Source: a virus. Taken from it: a stretch of 64,000 bases of DNA. Positions 14,631-58,813 of the stretch are shown here, one piece after another (position 1 is the first letter of the stretch; the number at the start of each line of letters is the position of its first letter). Location: positions 38,064 to 102,063 of the IMG/VR virus record IMGVR_UViG_3300042889_001540. One strand, 5' to 3'. The notes beneath the pieces were generated by a model, which saw nothing but the letters and a program-made list of their open reading frames with translations, did no database searches and was not told where the DNA came from. The translations under genes and the position numbers were made by a program.

Positions 14631-15398
14631 TTATATTGTCTTTAATATTTTATTTCCTTTTTTTAAATTATCTTCAGCCCATAATGGTTGAAGATTCGTA
14701 TAGTAACTAAGTTGGTAAATTTCTTCTTCAGTTTTAGATGAAGATAATGGTATTATGTGGTCTATATGCCACCCATATAATCCATAATTTTCCCAAGACA
14801 TACCCTCCTTAAATTGTTTTTCCAAATGTTCTTTAAGAAATTCCGGAGTACATCCTACAATTTCAAAGGTTTTATTTTTTTTAGTTATAATGTTAAGTTT
14901 CAAATATTGACTTAATCTTCGTCTAATATTACTTGACATTTTTCTTTTTGGTTTTTGATTACTTTTCTTAAGGGTTTCTTTTATTTTTTCAGGATTGTTT
15001 TCTCGATATTTTTTGTGAGATTCCATTATTTTTTCAATATTATTTTCTCTATATTGTTTACTATATTCCTTTATCTTTTCAATATTATTTTTTTTCCAAA
15101 TTGATGAATTTTCAATAGATTTTTTAGAATTATTTTCATACCATTTTTGACTATAATCTTTTACCTTATCAGGGTTATTTTTTTTCCATTCTCTACTTCT
15201 TTGGATTTCTTTTTCAGAGTTTATTTTATACCAATTTTGACTTGTCTCTTTTTTCTTCTCTGAATTAAGTTCCATCCATTTTGAAACACGTTTTATATTA
15301 CACGTTTTACATTCACTCCTCCTATAAAGTTTTTTCTCTAAATAAAAATCATCCAATGATTTTTCAATTAAACATTTAGTACAAACTTTTGTTTCCAT
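14631..15398 (-). CDS. HNH homing endonuclease (free-standing), copy 1
   Basis: 255 aa with start at 15398 (METKVCTKC). An ATG six bases earlier (15404) is possible; a longer start at 15470 would overlap the upstream gene by 41 bases and is not supported, because the paralogue at 33951-34682 begins exactly at METKVC. Layout: N-terminal four-Cys zinc-finger-like part (CTKC ... C..C), a highly charged middle of about 16-residue repeats (EKIKE..KKYRENN), then an HNH domain with WHIDHIIPLSS as the catalytic His block and NLQPLWAEDNLKK as the following N/H region. Such enzymes cut intronless alleles and spread themselves. It sits between two tail genes without an intron and is codon-wise as AT-rich as or richer than its neighbours. 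Confidence 0.88.
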   Translation of the reverse strand: METKVCTKCLIEKSLDDFYLEKKLYRRSECKTCNIKRVSKWMELNSEKKKETSQNWYKINSEKEIQRSREWKKNNPDKVKDYSQKWYENNSKKSIENSSIWKKNNIEKIKEYSKQYRENNIEKIMESHKKYRENNPEKIKETLKKSNQKPKRKMSSNIRRRLSQYLKLNIITKKNKTFEIVGCTPEFLKEHLEKQFKEGMSWENYGLYGWHIDHIIPLSSSKTEEEIYQLSYYTNLQPLWAEDNLKKGNKILKTI

Positions 15399-15429
15399 AT
15401 TCATAAATACCTTATCTCTTTTTTTTCTG

Positions 15430-16521
15430 TTAATTTTCTTTATTAATGACATTGAAGAACCCAAACCCATAGTTAATCATGTCACCAAGGTTATCTACCT
15501 CACCTAATCTTTGTATTCTCTCATACGCGGAGTTTTTACCTCTTTCAACAAAAACATTAGTTTGAACCTGTGCTTGGTCAATAACTTTGAGTAATACCTC
15601 ATCTTTAGTTATTGGAACCGCAGTTATATTATTTTCCGTAAGTCCTGATGATTGTACGAAATAAATTGTGGTACCATCAATGTAATCATAGTAATTAATT
15701 TCAGTAATTGTATAAGCAGTATAAATTGAAGTAACATCTGTTATTGCTCCCCATATTTGACCATTACTAATCACAGGAACCCCAATTCGTTCATTAATTG
15801 TTGGATTACCATACATTTTTAACTCATTAATTCTCGACTTAGTAATTCCTGATACGGTAAACGGTATTGAAACATAATTGTTAGAGGTTTGAGCAGATAC
15901 TTCATTAATCGCATCCCCAGAAAATATATAATCATAAGATACCGAAGTCCCAACCCAATTCCCTGAAGAAGGAGCAAAAAATGCTTCACCCTGTGGGTTG
16001 TAAATTACAACATCACTAAATGGAACCGTTATTGTTTTTGAAACACTGGTAATGCCCCAAGGATTTGTTTGTTCTAATTTAATCGTATATTCTTTATTCT
16101 CAACAGGGTATGTGTGATTAATTGAATTAGGTGCGTAATTAGTGATAGTTTGTTTTGGGGAACCGTCACCCCAATCAATCTTATATGAAGATAAATCTAA
16201 AAATTTTTGGAACTCATCCGACGTATTATAAACATTGTAAAGGTAAGGGGATGATGTTGTTGAAGAAAATATAAAATTTGCAACAACATTTTTTTGTAAT
16301 ACCGCACCATCAAATGGACTATAATACCCGGTATCAACCGCACTTTGTCTAATCAAAATAGGTATAGTCAATCCGGTTAATAAGGAACTACCATTAACAC
16401 CCGAACTAACAACTTGGGTCATTGCAGAATAAACACCAACGGGTGTCCCTTCATAATCAACAACGAATAAATCCCCAAGAATCGTTTCCGGTGATATTTT
16501 AATATTATAAAAATCTTCCAT
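15430..16521 (-). CDS. Tail protein with a PKD-like domain
   Basis: 363 aa. Residues about 80-168 form a PKD-like beta-sandwich: IDWGDGSP at 115-122, a NHTYP strand at 135-139 and a closing VSKTITVPF strand at 160-168. PKD domains mediate protein-protein or carbohydrate contacts in extracellular proteins. The N-terminal 60 residues and the C-terminal part (YERIQRLGEVDNLGDM) are not assigned. It shares one base with the upstream 276-aa gene and is followed by the HNH insertion. Likely a baseplate or fibre component; the domain call is firm, the specific role is inferred. Confidence 0.75.
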   Translation of the reverse strand: MEDFYNIKISPETILGDLFVVDYEGTPVGVYSAMTQVVSSGVNGSSLLTGLTIPILIRQSAVDTGYYSPFDGAVLQKNVVANFIFSSTTSSPYLYNVYNTSDEFQKFLDLSSYKIDWGDGSPKQTITNYAPNSINHTYPVENKEYTIKLEQTNPWGITSVSKTITVPFSDVVIYNPQGEAFFAPSSGNWVGTSVSYDYIFSGDAINEVSAQTSNNYVSIPFTVSGITKSRINELKMYGNPTINERIGVPVISNGQIWGAITDVTSIYTAYTITEINYYDYIDGTTIYFVQSSGLTENNITAVPITKDEVLLKVIDQAQVQTNVFVERGKNSAYERIQRLGEVDNLGDMINYGFGFFNVINKEN

Positions 16522-29672: not shown

Positions 29673-32111
29673 TTAATTTTGTTGTGATTCTCTTTGTTTT
29701 CTTTTTTCTAAAAGTTCTTTAACTCTATCTCTTTTTCTATCTTCTTGTTGTTCTTCAAACCCTAAGAAAGTGACTGAACTTTCTGTATCAATTTCAAGTA
29801 ATTCATTATTAAATTTACAATTTTCAAATACTACCCCATCTTTTCCAAGACGAGATTTAGTGATTGCAATTGTCGCTAAATTCATTTCTTTTTGTGTCAA
29901 TGTTTTTGCAACCGATATAATAACGTGTCCTACTTGAGCCTTTTTGATTGACCCCCCCATTTGGTCAGTTGTTACTACCTCAGCAGATATTGAAGACCTA
30001 TTACCTTGTGTTGCCGTCCACCCGACTAAATCAAGTTCGTGACACATCGCCTCAAATCCTCTCATTACTGAACCTTCCGCTTTCCACTCATCTTTACTAC
30101 TTGATTCCGGTAAAATACAATCAATGTAATCCACTAAAACTAAATCAATTTTAATACCGTCAGCAATCATTTTTCTAACTTGAGTTTTGATTTGATTCAT
30201 TGTCATAGTGTCTGAAGCCAATTTCTTCAATATTAAACGATTTTGCATCGTTTCTTTAATTTCAGTAATTTTAGACATTACATCTTCTTTATGTAATACT
30301 AAATTATCCGGTTCAATACCTGTCCACATCGTAAAATGTTTTCTTTGGATAATTTTTGGGTTATCCTCGAAGAATATTTGTAAAACATTGTAACCTAAAT
30401 TAAAAGCAGTGTTTGCAATTTTTGATAAAATGGTTGTGTTATGTGTTAAAACATAATCTCTAGTCACGTATAACTCGTCCGGATTAGAAACTTTAATACA
30501 AGTCGCCTCCTCATCATGAGAATAAGTTATCGACTTGACATATTTCTGTTCAACATATTTCTCCCTCTTATAATATCTACCAACTTTTCTTAGTAATTTG
30601 AACGGAACAACGTCATTTGCGAAGGACATTGTTATCGTGTAAGCCAACTGACCCTCTTTCTTCTCTCCGTCATAAGTATAAGTCGGTATTTTAGTGTTAA
30701 TTCGAACAGTTCCACCCAAAGATAAAACTAATTCCCTAACATTATTACACAATTGTTCCGATATCGTCGTAAATTGAACCGTCCCTTTTTTATCAACATG
30801 CCCATCAGTATCCATTAAACCTTGTAATAATGAAACTCTTACATCTAATGAATTATAAAGATAATCTTTTGGTATAAATTTATTGTTAGACTTTTTATTT
30901 AACAAATCATAAACTTTTAGTCGTTCTTTTATTTTACCCTTTAAGTTTATTGATTTTATACTTTTAGTTTCAGTTCTATAATATTCATTAAACGATGAAT
31001 GTTCACCAAGACATTCAATGGAATCAAATAACTCATCGTCCTTAGTACTTATACGGACACCACTATCACAAATACTACCATCTCCCAACAATAACCCAAG
31101 TAAATATGGGTCTATCGACACTTCTCTTTTTTCAAAATCGACCGGACTTACCACAGGTAATCTATAGTTATATCGACCTCTCTTCTTAATATCTTTCATC
31201 ATATCAGAGGTTTTAACAACCTTATACCCATAGTTCGGTTTATAAACACCCTTACCATTAACCCTTGTTTTAGCGGTTCTCATGTTCAATGTATTAACAC
31301 TCCAAAGATGTTCTTCATCACAATTCACAAAAGTATCATCACTAAACTCTACTTTATAAATTGGTCTAACACCTTGTGGGTAAACACCTATCACATATTG
31401 TTCTTTCCCATCACTACCAATAACCTTATCCCCAAGTTTTACTTCACCCATTTTTACCCATCCTTGAGGTGTTAAAACCGGTTCAGAGTTTGGACAGCTC
31501 TTGCCAACACCTGTTGGTGCTAATATAACCCCAATTTCCCCTTTTGCCAAACCACCTTTCAATAATTTGTCAATTCCCGGAATACCCATTGGGATTGGGT
31601 GTCGGTAGTCTTCGTCTAAGACAGTATCTAAATTTTCAAATATATCTGTCTGACCTTTATCAACCTCTCCGACCTGCAATGCGTCTCTCATCAAACCTTC
31701 AACTTTATCATATGATTCAAAGTCTCCTTGGGTAATAATTTTCTGAGCCTTATCCATCGCCTTCTGTAGTTCTTGTTGTTTACAAAATTTCAACGCCTTC
31801 TCTTGAACGAACATTGTTCCTTCAATTGGAGCGTCCTGAATTTGTTTGATTGTATCTAAAACAATCTTAGCGACCATTTCCTGTGAGATTTCGGACCTAA
31901 CAATTTGCCCTAAAGTATCAAAATTTGGTGTTGATTCATATTTTTTGTAGTACTCTTTTGTCATCTGTAAAATGATTTTAAAATACTTATTATCAAAATA
32001 CACTGACTCAATAACATCCATTATAGATGATGAAAAATCTTTATCTACTATTATCTGATTTAGTAATTGTATTTGAAATGTGTTACCTAAGTAATCGAAA
32101 TTTTTATTCAT
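29673..32111 (-). CDS. DnaB-type replicative helicase (T4 gp41-like) containing an intein
   Basis: 812 aa precursor; about 459 aa after splicing, matching T4 gp41 (475). It unwinds DNA ahead of the phage fork and works with primase and polymerase. N-extein residues 1-205 hold the N-terminal helical domain and the start of the RecA-like core ([20 protein letters not shown], then Walker A APTGVGKS at 198-205). The intein (206-558) splits the P-loop; the C-extein resumes at T559 ([12 protein letters not shown]) with [10 protein letters not shown] (Walker B), [10 protein letters not shown] and the MGGSIKKAQ arginine-finger region. The helicase is therefore only active after splicing. It follows the 150-aa gene by 36 bases and leads into nrdB. 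Confidence 0.95.
30438..31496 (-). other. Intein with LAGLIDADG endonuclease in the DnaB-type helicase P-loop
   Basis: 353 residues (C206-N558). It begins with Cys1 ([13 protein letters not shown]) and ends with VLTHN before extein Thr+1. Block A/B features ([16 protein letters not shown]) and the two dodecapeptides [12 protein letters not shown] and [12 protein letters not shown] mark a LAGLIDADG homing endonuclease inside. All splice residues are present, so splicing is expected. The insertion point, just after GK-Ser in Walker A, is a classic highly conserved homing target. Confidence 0.95.
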
Positions 32112-32147: not shown

Positions 32148-32600
32148 TTACCTAGCCAAGTCAAGTTCCAAATAATTGTAACTTAATTTTTTGTCTGAAA
32201 AAATGTCAGTCAATCCTCGAAGAGTTTCCTTCAAGAAAGGTCTTACATCGACAGTATACCTAACTTTCGGTGGATAAAATTTTCCATCAAAAACTCTATG
32301 ACAAATTGTCTGTTCACCTAATTTAATATAAATGTTAAACACTTCAGGGCCATCAGTAAACGATGTGTCCATAATTGTTGGGTCATTCATGATGGAATCT
32401 TGATTGTCCATCATATACGCCAATGTTTTCATTTTCAAATACTCTTGAAGTTCGTCCTTGAATTCCGCAATGAACTCATACAGCTCAATCGAGTTCTTCG
32501 CCTTTGGAATATACCCCCTTACATTAAAGAATCTTTGAACTACAATATTATCATTTAATGATAATAAGAACTCCATCTTGGTACTTTCTTGTTCTTTCAT
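32148..32600 (-). CDS. Hypothetical protein in the replication block
   Basis: 150 aa, not recognised. The first eight residues (MKEQESTK) precede a second Met (MEFLLSLNDN) that could be the real start at 32576. The sequence is acidic and helical in the first half (YEFIAEFKDELQEYLKMKTLAYMM) and ends in a basic/beta part (KVRYTVDVRPFLKETLRGLTDIF). It sits between the Acb2-like gene and the helicase, 36 bases before the helicase start. A role in replication or host takeover is only suggested by position. Confidence 0.65.
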   Translation of the reverse strand: MKEQESTKMEFLLSLNDNIVVQRFFNVRGYIPKAKNSIELYEFIAEFKDELQEYLKMKTLAYMMDNQDSIMNDPTIMDTSFTDGPEVFNIYIKLGEQTICHRVFDGKFYPPKVRYTVDVRPFLKETLRGLTDIFSDKKLSYNYLELDLAR

Positions 32601-32624: not shown

Positions 32625-32939
32625 TTATACTATTTGTTTTCCCTCAACATTTCTTTTTATTCTGTCGGAGGTTCTTTTGTTTAACCATAAAAGAGCTTCG
32701 TCTAATTTGGTAATAGCAATTGCGTTTTCGCGACAAGGGAATTTACTTTGTAAGTAATTCATTCTGTTTAACAACATTTCAATTAATTCCTCATTTGTTG
32801 TGCCATCGGCGATTGTTTTTAATTCTGTAGAACCTTCAGTTATTGGTTCTTTTTGAATAAATTGTAATGCCTGTCCTTGTTCCTCTTTGTTTTCAAAGTT
32901 TGATAACTCGTACTTGTGTCCTTCTACTAATACTTTCAT
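32625..32939 (-). CDS. Probable Acb2/Vs.4-type anti-CBASS cyclic-nucleotide sponge
   Basis: 104 aa with start at 32939 (MKVLVEGHKYELSNFEN); a start at 33002 would run 67 bases into the exonuclease gene and is rejected. The chosen start overlaps the exonuclease stop as ATGA, a normal coupled junction. The C-terminal half carries the Acb2/Tad1-hairpin hallmark: a helix NEELIEMLLNRMNYLQSKF, then PCRENAIAITKLDEALLWLN and KRTSDRIKRNVEG. Acb2 proteins (T4 Vs.4 among them) bind the cyclic di- and trinucleotides made by CBASS immunity and so block abortive infection. The N-terminal EGHKYELxNFEN part is as in T4-like members. Recognition is from memory of the family, not a search; position among early-type genes fits. 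Confidence 0.75.
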   Translation of the reverse strand: MKVLVEGHKYELSNFENKEEQGQALQFIQKEPITEGSTELKTIADGTTNEELIEMLLNRMNYLQSKFPCRENAIAITKLDEALLWLNKRTSDRIKRNVEGKQIV

Positions 32940-33934
32940 TTGTTTGTGTTTCGTTTTTCTTTTCTTGTTAATTTCATAAATGGTCTTAGGAAATTCACCC
33001 AAGCCTCATCGTTTTTTGGAAGATATTTAAAGAGACCATCTTCCATCATAAGTCTCATTAGATTTTTGTATCCCCTATCGGTGGGGTCAATCGTGTCAGT
33101 AATAATTTGGTTTACTAATTCTTTCGCATTTTCTGTAATTAAGGGGTTAGATAAATCGACTATTTTTTTGTTTGTAGTGTAAAACTCTTCACCAAGTATA
33201 CCATTTTTTGTTTTACCAATCAAAATATTTTCCAATACTTTTGATTTTTTTTCTTGCACGATATTTCCTGCATTAACTCGTATTTCTTCCATAGTGCATG
33301 GTTTAACCTGCATATCAGGGAATAATTTAACTAAAGTTTTTTCACCTAAACCCTCAATACCATTAATATTATCAGAATTATCTCCTGTAAGAATTTTACA
33401 AGTTAAGACATTATAGTGGGGAATTTGAACTTTATTGATGGTAATCATATCACCCTGTTTAAAGTATTGTTTTGAGTTTGGTGAGTAAACGGATACTTTA
33501 TCCGAGATAAGCTGTGTAAGGTCCTTATCTGATGAAAATATGGTAATGTCTTCGTTGGTTGACATTTTACAATAATACGCAATAAGGTCGTCTCCTTCGT
33601 TATGAGGCGTTTCAACTTGCCTAACAAAGACCTCCTCAAGATATTCTTTAATACGAGCGTTTTGAGTTAGATATGATTCAAGTTCATATTCATTAATATT
33701 TTGTTTTCTATTTGTCTTATATTGAGGATAAAGTTCTTTCCGAGTGGACGAACTATGTTCGGCATCCCACATAACAACTACCTTATCGTAATTATGTTCC
33801 TCAAGGAATTTTCTAATGGTGTTGATAAAGTGGTAGATAGCACCCGAATGATTTTTATCACTATAAAGTTCTTTAACTCCGTGATACCCAATCTTCATTA
33901 AGTTGGCACCGTCAATTAATAATGTTTTTTTCAA
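32936..33934 (-). CDS. 5'-3' exonuclease / flap endonuclease (T4 RNase H-like)
   Basis: 332 aa. It removes RNA primers and 5' flaps during lagging-strand synthesis. The PIN/FEN layout is clear: LLIDGANLM near the N-terminus (first metal-binding Asp), VVVMWDAEHSSSTRKELYP with the arch region QYKTNRKQN, ETPHNEGDDLIAYYC, FSSDKDLTQLI, and the GDNSDNINGIEGLGEKT helix-hairpin-helix DNA-binding block. T4 RNase H is 305 aa. It overlaps the Acb2-like gene by 4 bases and follows the HNH endonuclease by 16 bases. All acidic metal ligands appear conserved, so it should be active. Confidence 0.93.
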   Translation of the reverse strand: MKKTLLIDGANLMKIGYHGVKELYSDKNHSGAIYHFINTIRKFLEEHNYDKVVVMWDAEHSSSTRKELYPQYKTNRKQNINEYELESYLTQNARIKEYLEEVFVRQVETPHNEGDDLIAYYCKMSTNEDITIFSSDKDLTQLISDKVSVYSPNSKQYFKQGDMITINKVQIPHYNVLTCKILTGDNSDNINGIEGLGEKTLVKLFPDMQVKPCTMEEIRVNAGNIVQEKKSKVLENILIGKTKNGILGEEFYTTNKKIVDLSNPLITENAKELVNQIITDTIDPTDRGYKNLMRLMMEDGLFKYLPKNDEAWVNFLRPFMKLTRKEKRNTNK

Positions 33935-33950
33935 TTAAACCTATTTAAGG

Positions 33951-34682
33951 TTATACAATAATTTTGTTACTCTTTTTTAAATTATCTTCAGCCCATAATG
34001 GTTGAAGATTTTCATAATGACATAACTTATAAAGTTCGTCTTCTGTTTTTGCCGATGATAATGGAATGATGTGGTCAATATGCCACTCACCCCTGTTATC
34101 CCAACTCATACCATCGCTAAATTGGGTTTCTAAATGTTCTTTAAGAAATTCCGGTGAACACCCTACAATATCGAAAGTTTTATTAGTTTTACTAATGTTT
34201 CGGGTTTTAAGAAATGATAAAAGTCTAGACCTCATAATACATTTTAATCGAAAAATAACATCATTTTTTAATCTTAAAGAATGATAAAGATTTCTTTTTA
34301 CTTTAACTTTTTCTTTATTTTTTTCTGACCACTCTTTTTTATAAGTTAAAATAGTTTCTTTATTATTTTCATAATATATTTTATACCGATTTGGGTCTTT
34401 TTGGTATCTTTTTTTTGACCTATCATTATCTTTTACCCTAATTACATCAATATTTTCTTCTCGGTAATTTTTAACTTTTAATAATATTTTTTCCCGGTTA
34501 TCAATGTATTCTTTTCTTTTTTGAGCCTTTATTTTTTCATCGTTATTATCCCTATATTTTTTCCAAACCATATAAGAACATTGTTTACATTCAGTTCTAA
34601 ACCCATCTTTAGAATCTTTTCTTTTTCTAAAATTAGGTAATTCTTTTTCAAGATTACACTTACTACAAACTTTAGTTTCCAT
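33951..34682 (-). CDS. HNH homing endonuclease (free-standing), copy 2
   Basis: 243 aa beginning METKVCSKC. Same plan as copy 1 at 14631-15398: N-terminal Cys pairs (CSKC ... CKQC), a charged helical middle (NREKILLKVKNYREEN), and a C-terminal HNH block with GEWHIDHIIPLSSAKTEDEL and NLQPLWAEDNLKKSNK. The GCSPEFLKEHLETQF and DGMSWDN segments are nearly the same in both copies. It lies between uvsX and the exonuclease gene, sites that homing endonucleases often invade. Its start codon lies inside the end of the small ribbon-helix-helix gene (11-base overlap), suggesting translational coupling. Confidence 0.9.
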   Translation of the reverse strand: METKVCSKCNLEKELPNFRKRKDSKDGFRTECKQCSYMVWKKYRDNNDEKIKAQKRKEYIDNREKILLKVKNYREENIDVIRVKDNDRSKKRYQKDPNRYKIYYENNKETILTYKKEWSEKNKEKVKVKRNLYHSLRLKNDVIFRLKCIMRSRLLSFLKTRNISKTNKTFDIVGCSPEFLKEHLETQFSDGMSWDNRGEWHIDHIIPLSSAKTEDELYKLCHYENLQPLWAEDNLKKSNKIIV

Positions 34683-34824
34683 TTCTAATATATTCTTTTA
34701 ATAATTTATTAACAAGGGAAGATAAATTTATAGATTTATCCTTAAAGTACTGTGGAAGTTCGGGGTCTATTGAGACTCCAATCTTAACTTTCTTTTCAAT
34801 TTCTTCTTTTTTCTTTCTTCCCAT
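34672..34824 (-). CDS. Small ribbon-helix-helix-like protein coupled to the HNH gene
   Basis: 50 aa, starting at ATG 34824 (MGRKKKEEIEKKVKIGVSID) and ending at TAA 34672-34674, inside the HNH gene's first codons. The basic start, the strand KVKIGVSIDPE and the two short helices (LPQYFKD, LSSLVNKLLKEYI) fit a MetJ/Arc/CopG-type DNA-binding fold. Such proteins act as small repressors. The overlap with the HNH start suggests it controls or is co-expressed with the endonuclease. A TATTTAT element ends 4 bases before the start. The protein is too short for a confident family call. Confidence 0.65.
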   Translation of the reverse strand: MGRKKKEEIEKKVKIGVSIDPELPQYFKDKSINLSSLVNKLLKEYIRNGN

Positions 34825-55600: not shown

Positions 55601-58600
55601 TTAAATATTCTCGAACGAAGCTCCTGTTGGAGTAATGAAGAATTCAATATCGATGAACTCTAATGCTTTCGTCGGTTTTAAGTAAATTTTACCTGTTAAA
55701 GTATTTCTATCTAAATCCTCAGGTGAAGATGAAACAGTTACACGGAAATCGTATAAACCTCTATCTCTTCTAATTGAGTCTAAGATTGGGTTAACACTAT
55801 CTAAGAATTGTTGTCTAACAATTTGGTCGTTTTGTTCAAACAATAATCTTACAGCCACCGCTGAAATCAACTTACGAGCTTGAAGTAATAATCTTCTTAC
55901 ATTCAATCTATTAAGTGCCGTATCGGCAATTTGTAATGTTTTATTACCCCAAATTACTGTACCAACATCAGAGAAAGTTGCGATAGGGTTAATTCTACCT
56001 TGGTACAATGTATCTCTATCTTCTTGAGTTAATTTAACTCTCGCCTTAACTGAGTTTACAAGACCTCTAGTATAACCCGCAGATGCGAACCATGGGAAAG
56101 CGATGTTATCAGTTAACGCTAAGTTTCTACAAACCTCACCTGTTGCCGGTAAATAAATTTGTGTATTATTTACAGTATCTCTTGTTAAAACCCAAGGATA
56201 ATAAGTTGCGGTATAGTTAGAGTCAATTCCGGTATTATCTAAATTATCTACTGATTCTTGAGGATAAATAATATCCTGTGGATTAGTTGAGTCCGGAGTA
56301 TACATATTGTAATCCGGAGTTGTTGCAATATAAACTGAATCCGCTCTTTGGTATTGAATCATGTCAATAGTTTCTTCAACTAAGTTAGAGTTATTGATGT
56401 AGTCAATACTTGATGTTGCAAATACATTAATGTTTGTAGCTTCAGGGTTTCTAAATGTTAGAATACCCAGTAAGTAAGCATAATAGTCGGTATTAGCAAA
56501 ATCTTGAGTGTTATCAGCAACAGTAATTCTTTTAAATAAACCACTTCCGGTTGCGTTAGGGTATCGAGTTGAAGATGATGCTCCCGCTAAAAATCCTGAT
56601 TGACCTAATTGGAATCTATCTTGATTTGTTCTAAATTCTCTATAGATGTCCCAACCGTCGAATCCACCAGCAAAACATACAGTATATTTTCTTGAGTAGA
56701 TGAAATAGTATGGATTTTCTTGAGTTTCAGGGTCTGTTCTAAATTCTGCAGTACCACATTCAAATGCAGTTTGACCACTAGTTAATGAACTATTTGAAAT
56801 TGTGACTACGGTTGCACCGGAATCCATGTGGAAACCTTTACTTACATAATTCCAAGACGCCCCTTCAATTGGTTGTGGGGCAATAACCCAAGATTCTGGG
56901 GTTTGTTTACCTTTGTAAGATAAAAATGATTCGTCAATACCATATTGAGTTGAGAAACCTAAATAAGTTCTTCTAACAATATCACCCGGAGATTCTACTG
57001 TGTTTGGACCACCGGTTGGTGTACCGAATGGTGGATTAGCAATGGTTTCACCAGGGAAAAAATATTTTGTTTTAAATTTAGGGGTCGGTGATGGATTTAA
57101 AACTGAATCGTATTCTCTTTGAGTATATCCTTCAAACCCACAAGGAATTGCATCAATTGGGGCCTCATCCGCCATTTCAATCATTACGTATTTTGAAAGT
57201 AACGCGTATTCTCCGTTAGTGGAACCAAGTTTCTTAGCAACAAAGTTGTTAGAATTAGGGTCCATATTACAGTTAGTAAATTTTTCAATAACAACTGGGT
57301 TTGAATCAGTGTCAAAGAAATTTCTAACTAACACATCAAATGTCATATTATTAAATGATAGGTTAGCAATTGAAACTTTAACTTCAGTATTTGCAGCATC
57401 TCCATCTGAGATTGAAACAAATTTAAATAATTTGTAAACTTTATTACCTCTTAATTCTGACACCAAATAAGGTGTACTTGGTGATTGATATTGACCTACA
57501 TTATACGCTATTGATGACGGATTTTCACTTTTAGCATCCGGTAATGCAACTAATTCAGGATTAATACCTTTTATATATCCTTGATTATAAGCGTATGCCA
57601 ATGAACCAGGGTAAATCTCTTCAACAAATAAAGGAACCTCATTTCTTGATTTTCCAAAATTATCAACACCTAATACTTTAGTAATAAATTTTGAAGAAGC
57701 AGCAGATAAGTTAGTTTCAAATGTAAAATTATCCCCATCTTTAGTGACACCTGATAAACCAAATGAGGCATAAGGGTTTTTATCAATATCTGCGTATTGG
57801 TCAGTAGATAATAATGTAACATTAGTTAAACCACTTACCTCATAAATTGGTCCATGATTATCACTAGTTGAACTATTAGTATATAATGAAATACCTCTTG
57901 AACGAAGAGTTGCAACAACCATGTCATTGTATTCAGTATAAGCCGTTCCGGTAAAACTGTAATAATCTCCCGATATAGTTCCCGAAAAACTATCGGTTAA
58001 TCCGGTAGTGATGGAATCAAACGCATAGTTAAATGAATAACCTGAATAAGAGTTACCCGCATAATTATTAAAATTCGCATAGTACCATGAATCATTTTGA
58101 CCGGCAGATAAATCATTATTTGTTAAATTAAGAGAGTCAACACCATATGAATTCACAACAGTACCATATTGACCTATTAAAACATAATAATCACTTTCAG
58201 GGATTGAACCGTAAGCGATTGCCGTTGTTGCAGACAATGTAGGATTACCAACTAATGTTATTATAGTATTTGTAATGTCGTTATTATATGTTGATGTACT
58301 TCCATCTGAAAGTCTGTATTGTGTATTAAAGTTAGCCTGAACCACAGTTGGAAATGAACCACTAATAAAATTAACAGTTTCAGCACTGGTTGAACCTGTA
58401 AAAGATACAGACCAAGATGTTGCACCTGTTGGACTTTGATTTATTGTAGTAGGGTCAACATTTGCAGTAACTCTAATACTCCAAGATGGTCCTGCATCAT
58501 ATCCTGATAAACCTAAGATTCTTGTAACAAACAATTGGTTTGATTGTTGCAAGTAAGATTTAGCAATATATGCCGCTTCATATTTAGGGATTTGTGTGTT

Positions 58601-58813
58601 AACAAATTTGGTTGGTTCTGTTCCTCCGAAAAAGGCTTGGAATTCGTCATAGTTTGTTATAAATACCGGTTCAAATGCGGGACCTTTTAAAGTCTCACCA
58701 ACTAAACCTAAGGTAGTAACACCTACACTTTGTGCTACGAATGATAAGTCAGTTTCTGAAGTGTATACTCCCGGTGAAACGAAAACTTTTTGATTTGCTT
58801 GTGCTGTTGCCAT
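55601..58813 (-). CDS. Tail sheath protein, gp18-like (large)
   Basis: 1070 aa, much longer than T4 gp18 (659). The N-terminus has the sheath signature KVFVSPGVYTSETDLSFVAQ and GLVGETLKGPAFEPVFITNY; the C-terminal contractile core is clear (RNLALTDNIAFPWFASAGYT, GLVNSVKARVKLTQEDRDTL, RINPIATFSDVGTVIWGNKT, VRRLLLQARKLISAVAVRLL). The extra 400 or so residues sit between these as exposed insertion domains (about 150-450), probably decorating the tail surface. It contracts to drive the tube through the host envelope. A TATTTAT element lies 36-42 bases upstream and a strong terminator follows. Confidence 0.95.
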   Translation of the reverse strand: MATAQANQKVFVSPGVYTSETDLSFVAQSVGVTTLGLVGETLKGPAFEPVFITNYDEFQAFFGGTEPTKFVNTQIPKYEAAYIAKSYLQQSNQLFVTRILGLSGYDAGPSWSIRVTANVDPTTINQSPTGATSWSVSFTGSTSAETVNFISGSFPTVVQANFNTQYRLSDGSTSTYNNDITNTIITLVGNPTLSATTAIAYGSIPESDYYVLIGQYGTVVNSYGVDSLNLTNNDLSAGQNDSWYYANFNNYAGNSYSGYSFNYAFDSITTGLTDSFSGTISGDYYSFTGTAYTEYNDMVVATLRSRGISLYTNSSTSDNHGPIYEVSGLTNVTLLSTDQYADIDKNPYASFGLSGVTKDGDNFTFETNLSAASSKFITKVLGVDNFGKSRNEVPLFVEEIYPGSLAYAYNQGYIKGINPELVALPDAKSENPSSIAYNVGQYQSPSTPYLVSELRGNKVYKLFKFVSISDGDAANTEVKVSIANLSFNNMTFDVLVRNFFDTDSNPVVIEKFTNCNMDPNSNNFVAKKLGSTNGEYALLSKYVMIEMADEAPIDAIPCGFEGYTQREYDSVLNPSPTPKFKTKYFFPGETIANPPFGTPTGGPNTVESPGDIVRRTYLGFSTQYGIDESFLSYKGKQTPESWVIAPQPIEGASWNYVSKGFHMDSGATVVTISNSSLTSGQTAFECGTAEFRTDPETQENPYYFIYSRKYTVCFAGGFDGWDIYREFRTNQDRFQLGQSGFLAGASSSTRYPNATGSGLFKRITVADNTQDFANTDYYAYLLGILTFRNPEATNINVFATSSIDYINNSNLVEETIDMIQYQRADSVYIATTPDYNMYTPDSTNPQDIIYPQESVDNLDNTGIDSNYTATYYPWVLTRDTVNNTQIYLPATGEVCRNLALTDNIAFPWFASAGYTRGLVNSVKARVKLTQEDRDTLYQGRINPIATFSDVGTVIWGNKTLQIADTALNRLNVRRLLLQARKLISAVAVRLLFEQNDQIVRQQFLDSVNPILDSIRRDRGLYDFRVTVSSSPEDLDRNTLTGKIYLKPTKALEFIDIEFFITPTGASFENI

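Follow-up and report, generated by a model that had tools for sequence, protein, structure and literature searches.

The tad1 gene was first discovered in phage SBSphiJ7, and Tad1 consists of a beta-sheet and two helices, whereas Acb2 consists of a short helix and two helices (PMC12043709). The C-terminal tail of Tad1 lines the pocket for gcADPR and CDNs, and Tad1 homologues vary in their CDN range while the binding of gcADPR and CTN is kept (PMC12043709). A Tad1 that is injected has been reported for phage phiKZ (PMC13282480), and in a CBASS-resistant phage the Tad1 protein has been named as an orf184 (PMC12043709).

The window, that is, the whole stretch of 64,000 nucleotides of viral DNA analysed here (IMG/VR record IMGVR_UViG_3300042889_001540), contains a 104-aa open reading frame whose boundaries lie exactly at 32625 and 32939 on the minus strand. 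The features of the locus are the following.

32625–32939, minus strand: tad1-like gene of the short Tad1 subfamily, 104 aa
32808–32939, minus strand: codons of residues 1–44, predicted N-terminal beta strands, a Tad1-type segment without Acb2 counterpart (AlphaFold2 model and alignment)
32655–32795, minus strand: codons of residues 49–95, predicted hairpin of α1 (49–66) and α2 (70–95) (AlphaFold2 model; PF24729 match at residues 52–88)
32751–32753, minus strand: codon of Leu63, at the position of CbTad1 F82 (helix register and residue count)
32637–32654, minus strand: codons of residues 96–101 (RNVEGK), conserved C-terminal tail (alignment of relatives)
32936–33934, minus strand: 5'-3' (flap-type) exonuclease gene, upstream neighbour of tad1 (PF02739, E = 3e-32)
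32148–32600, minus strand: gene for a 150-aa protein of unknown function, downstream neighbour of tad1

Proteins identical or 92–95% identical to the 104-aa product are encoded on 13 other viral contigs, and more distant relatives number in the hundreds. Purifying selection on the tad1 reading frame is strong: dN/dS is 0.03–0.08 against six of seven close relatives and 0.15 against the seventh. This selection, together with the relatives in viral contigs, implies that the gene is real and not a chance open reading frame. Its start codon overlaps the stop codon of the exonuclease gene at positions 32936–32939 (ATG and TGA within ATGA). Scans of the operon for promoters and terminators returned about as many matches as scans of shuffled sequence.

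The window protein is very probably a Tad1 protein and, as such, a nucleotide sponge. It matches the Pfam model Acb2_Tad1_hairpin (PF24729) with 27.9 bits and only just passes the gathering threshold of 27; this model is common to Tad1 and Acb2 and cannot split the two sister families. A search of NCBIfam with the protein gave no match. By contrast with the Acb2-specific profile discussed below, a Tad1 profile from which the window's own subfamily was left out scores 94 bits. A phmmer search of the PDB found CmTad1 (2.5e-13) and CbTad1 (6e-11), only Tad1 being significant, and a family profile of 53 relatives retrieved CmTad1 (8e-30), CbTad1 (2e-27) and the phage protein gp184 (6e-13). The best matches among isolated phages include the annotated Tad1 proteins of two Bacillus phages: 90% of the query aligns with that of SPG24 (47%) and 70% with that of SBSphiJ7 (54%). 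The best phage-family match is PHROG phrog_2428 (1.3e-24, residues 6–102), which is listed as being of unknown function; the present results suggest that it should be annotated as Tad1, and an uncharacterized phage family would thereby gain a likely function.

The AlphaFold2 monomer model (pLDDT 92, pTM 0.77), in which the pLDDT is mostly above 90 over residues 1–44, displays five N-terminal strands (residues 2–5, 9–12, 23–27, 29–32 and 40–44) followed by two long helices. In a Foldseek search with this model, ranks 1 through 20 are all Tad1 chains, with TM values to the query of 0.61–0.71 and root mean square deviations of 3.7–4.9 Å, and the next match is unrelated (E = 1.3). The predicted strands and two-helix hairpin fit the published contrast between Tad1 and Acb2 and place the protein on the Tad1 side.

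The known Tad1 proteins (SBSphiJ7, SPG24, CmTad1, PDB code 8kbb, and CbTad1, PDB codes 7uav and 8smd) are homologous to the window protein over most of its length and share with it the layout of a beta-sheet and a helical hairpin, with the REN and VEG motifs kept. The differences are found in the length, which is 104 aa against about 124–142 aa, with a shorter N-terminal region; in the sequence DGTTNEE, where known Tad1 proteins have NGxxxE; and in the Leu at the F82 position and a hairpin loop that is one residue shorter. The likeness to Acb2 (T4 Vs.4) is limited to the two-helix hairpin, assigned to the same Pfam family, and to a sponge function alike in kind, whereas Acb2 has neither the N-terminal sheet nor the R-x-VEG tail. 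The phage protein gp184 (PDB code 8y6v, chain I), presumably from phiKZ, matches the Tad1-family profile through its C-terminal part, residues 145–226; at 230 aa it is extended by an additional N-terminal portion, whereas the window protein is small and free-standing. The latter is a well-supported new addition to the known Tad1 family.

N72 and R89 of the window protein, equivalent by residue count to N92 and R109 of CbTad1, are invariant in 53 relatives; N92 and R109 are pocket residues of CbTad1, and their numbering matches the sequence in the PDB. Both the REN motif and the C-terminal RNVEG are likewise kept. Because these elements are retained, the protein is best explained as a sponge for the signals of Thoeris and/or CBASS and, by homology, most likely sequesters gcADPR (Thoeris) and/or CBASS cyclic nucleotides. 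As in the studied homologues, the layout of an N-terminal antiparallel beta-sheet and a two-helix hairpin would assemble into a hexamer, a trimer of dimers, that binds the alarm nucleotides of the infected host tightly and does not degrade them. The ligands would include gcADPR produced by the TIR proteins of Thoeris, and CBASS cyclic nucleotides, in part in other pockets. Removal of the signal would leave the death effector switched off during phage replication, and the position of the gene suggests expression together with the replication genes. The same homologues suggest an anti-Thoeris or anti-CBASS activity in vivo. The earlier note, made from the sequence alone, had predicted an anti-defence protein that acts as a nucleotide sponge and falls within the Acb2/Tad1 hairpin group, and in this respect its reading is supported. 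The correction of the family from Acb2 to Tad1 changes the predicted target, since a Tad1 is expected to bind gcADPR of Thoeris in addition to CBASS nucleotides.

Relatives of both flanking genes, those for the exonuclease and the 150-aa protein, were collected from viral contigs. The tad1 gene is absent from 126 loci with both flanks (some contigs counted twice), in all but two of which the flanks lie 2–16 nt apart, and it fills the junction in 24 loci on 13 contigs. An exonuclease 99% identical to that of the window is found beside an empty junction (contig L087). When the flanks are reduced to 60 distinct exonuclease and 150-aa pairs, tad1 occupies the junction in five, and in nearly all of the remaining pairs the flanks adjoin directly. 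The five carriers need five gains or losses on the tree of these pairs, all of them forced by well-supported branches. A search for a second Tad1/Acb2 gene elsewhere on six tad1-less contigs of 89–326 kb, none known to be complete, found none. Relatives with a Tad1 60–83% identical to that of the window sit in unrelated phage backbones, beside unrelated genes. In the filled junctions, an A-rich stretch of the ACAAACAA type flanks the insert on both sides. The tad1 gene is thus optional cargo at this junction, by repeated gain, repeated loss or exchange through recombination, and the empty and filled junctions constitute natural near-isogenic pairs for assessing the value of a sponge to a large phage. 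In two other contigs (L139 and L154) the same junction holds a 2OG-Fe(II) oxygenase gene of about 240 aa, which suggests an insertion hot spot; the L139 copy matches PF13640 at 2e-18.

The ATGA overlap is confined to the window's near-identical contigs and L013. L009, L011 and L025 encode an exonuclease with one additional residue, and their tad1 start codon lies a few bases past the exonuclease stop codon; the exonuclease of the window ends one residue before that of empty-junction relatives. The overlap looks like a local by-product. The overlap with the exonuclease gene, read in the earlier note as translational coupling, is present in the window, though not conserved among relatives. The location in the replication operon likewise stands, while the idea of the counter-defence as an integral product of that operon is weakened by the optional presence of tad1.

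The short Tad1 subfamily, to which the window protein belongs, comprises proteins of about 102–108 aa from Bacteroidota genomes and viral contigs, 48 of 57 of which have DGTTNEE before helix 1. At the position of CbTad1 F82, all 52 scored members have Leu (Leu63 in the window protein), against Phe or Tyr in 32 of 36 scored other Tad1s. F82 is a pocket residue of CbTad1; an aromatic is common there in tested Tad1s, though it is not known to be family-defining. The hairpin loop has four residues in all 52 scored members and five or eight in 34 of the 36 others. The neighbouring position (Y62) is Tyr or Phe in 44 of 52 members, and this aromatic may replace the one missing at the F82 position.

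Several other readings of the protein were weighed. The one proposed in the earlier note, an Acb2/Vs.4-type anti-CBASS protein that forms a hexamer of short helices and helical hairpins and binds CBASS cyclic nucleotides only, draws on the Pfam hairpin domain common to Acb2 and the window protein, and its likely function overlaps with that of Tad1. It is nevertheless highly improbable. With an Acb2/Vs.4 profile of 19 sequences, T4 Vs.4 and its relatives, the protein scores 4.3 bits and an E-value of 64 (Z = 20000), against the 94 bits of the Tad1 profile, and on this result the Acb2 identity was rejected; the proposed comparison with the hairpin family is positive for PF24729 and negative for the Acb2-specific profile. 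No Acb2 was found in the PDB by phmmer with the protein or with the profile of 53 relatives, nor is an Acb2 chain present among the 50 Foldseek matches listed. The AlphaFold2 monomer model likewise points to Tad1, with strands at the N-terminus, where Acb2 has a short helix (PMC12043709). The motifs that had been taken as the Acb2 core, EGHKYELSNFEN, PCRENAIAITKLDEALLWLN and KRNVEG, are all present in the window protein and turn out to be Tad1 motifs: T4 Vs.4 has none of the three, and the EGHxYxLxNFE and RNVEG segments are absent from it. Even less credible is a replication-accessory protein that was co-opted from the Tad1 fold and acts with the flap exonuclease. The gene does sit between those for the exonuclease and a helicase, with the ATGA overlap, but most close relatives lack tad1 at the junction, including the one with the 99% identical exonuclease, the same subfamily adjoins unrelated genes in unrelated phage backbones, and the overlap is not conserved. 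A fixed role of tad1 in the replication operon was rejected on the synteny and the tree, which show its optional presence.

The remaining alternative retains the Tad1 fold and assumes a subfamily with shifted specificity, in which the binding of gcADPR and CDNs is lost or altered through the replacement of F82 by Leu and the short loop, while the cyclic-trinucleotide site at the trimer interface is kept. The ligand range may indeed differ from that of tested Tad1s because of the Leu and the loop, both of which separate the subfamily so consistently from other members of the family. The equivalents of N92 and R109 and the VEG tail are nonetheless retained, Y62 could stand in for the aromatic, and homologues that differ in CDN range still bind gcADPR and CTN (PMC12043709), so that we consider such a shift possible but rather unlikely. 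Slightly more doubtful again is a broader proposal, namely that the Bacteroidota-associated short subfamily has re-tuned the gcADPR/CDN pocket, through the invariant Leu at the F82 position and the loss of one loop residue, to suit another nucleotide signal. In this proposal it would also enter and leave a single fixed replication-operon slot in a jumbo-phage lineage, near-identical phages with and without tad1 coexisting in nature. Since the Leu is fixed at a pocket position that is known, it allows for a clean mutagenesis test. A Tad1 sponge for Thoeris and/or CBASS signals remains the preferred reading.

The nine close matches to the short subfamily among bacterial genome assemblies are all labelled Bacteroidota, with carriers that include Arcicella, Emticicia, Flavobacterium, Runella and Tenacibaculum; a tenth, weaker match, from a Thermodesulfovibrionales bin, falls in the long Tad1 group. 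The NrdB of the window is 68% identical to the NrdB of Tenacibaculum phages. The 12 kb around the gene had no nucleotide match among isolated phages, and searches with the exonuclease and the tail sheath returned only distant relatives that indicate no host. On the basis of the Bacteroidota carriers and the NrdB similarity, the phage likely infects Bacteroidota, as the earlier note had supposed. The extension of the family's range to Bacteroidota phages that it anticipated is, however, not new with this gene, because a divergent and unlabelled Tad1 relative occurs in Cellulophaga phages.

Seven bacterial genomes that carry the short subfamily were searched for the presumed target systems; CD-NTase (SMODS) was matched in five and ThsB_TIR in three. 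Plausible targets thus appear to be encoded in the carrier genomes, as judged from matches to individual proteins. The genome of Runella limosa DSM 17973 (L227) has four ThsB_TIR matches within 4 kb (G004:C4:2094–6025), possibly a multi-sensor Thoeris locus; a tad1 gene of the short subfamily is present in this genome as well, within a set of phage-like genes.

The tail-sheath protein of the window (55601–58813, minus strand) is unusually long, with 1070 aa, and its best sheath profile stretches lie in the C-terminal part. The same operon as in the window is held by a 309-kb contig (L001). The long sheath and this contig point to a jumbo phage with a contractile tail.

The DnaB-type helicase gene (29673–32111, minus strand) contains an intein, with LAGLIDADG and Hint-type matches, at the Walker A motif, whose counterpart in L009 and L013 is shorter and apparently free of the intein. 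An HNH endonuclease-like gene (33951–34682, minus strand), possibly a free-standing homing endonuclease, is positioned between the exonuclease gene and a UvsX/RecA-like gene and is overlapped by an open reading frame for a 50-aa CcdA-like protein (34672–34824, minus strand); neither of the two was detected in the relatives L009, L013 and L025. A second HNH-like open reading frame, in the tail-gene region (14631–15470, minus strand), contains METKVCTKCLIEKSLD, which resembles the beginning of the first HNH gene (33951–34682).
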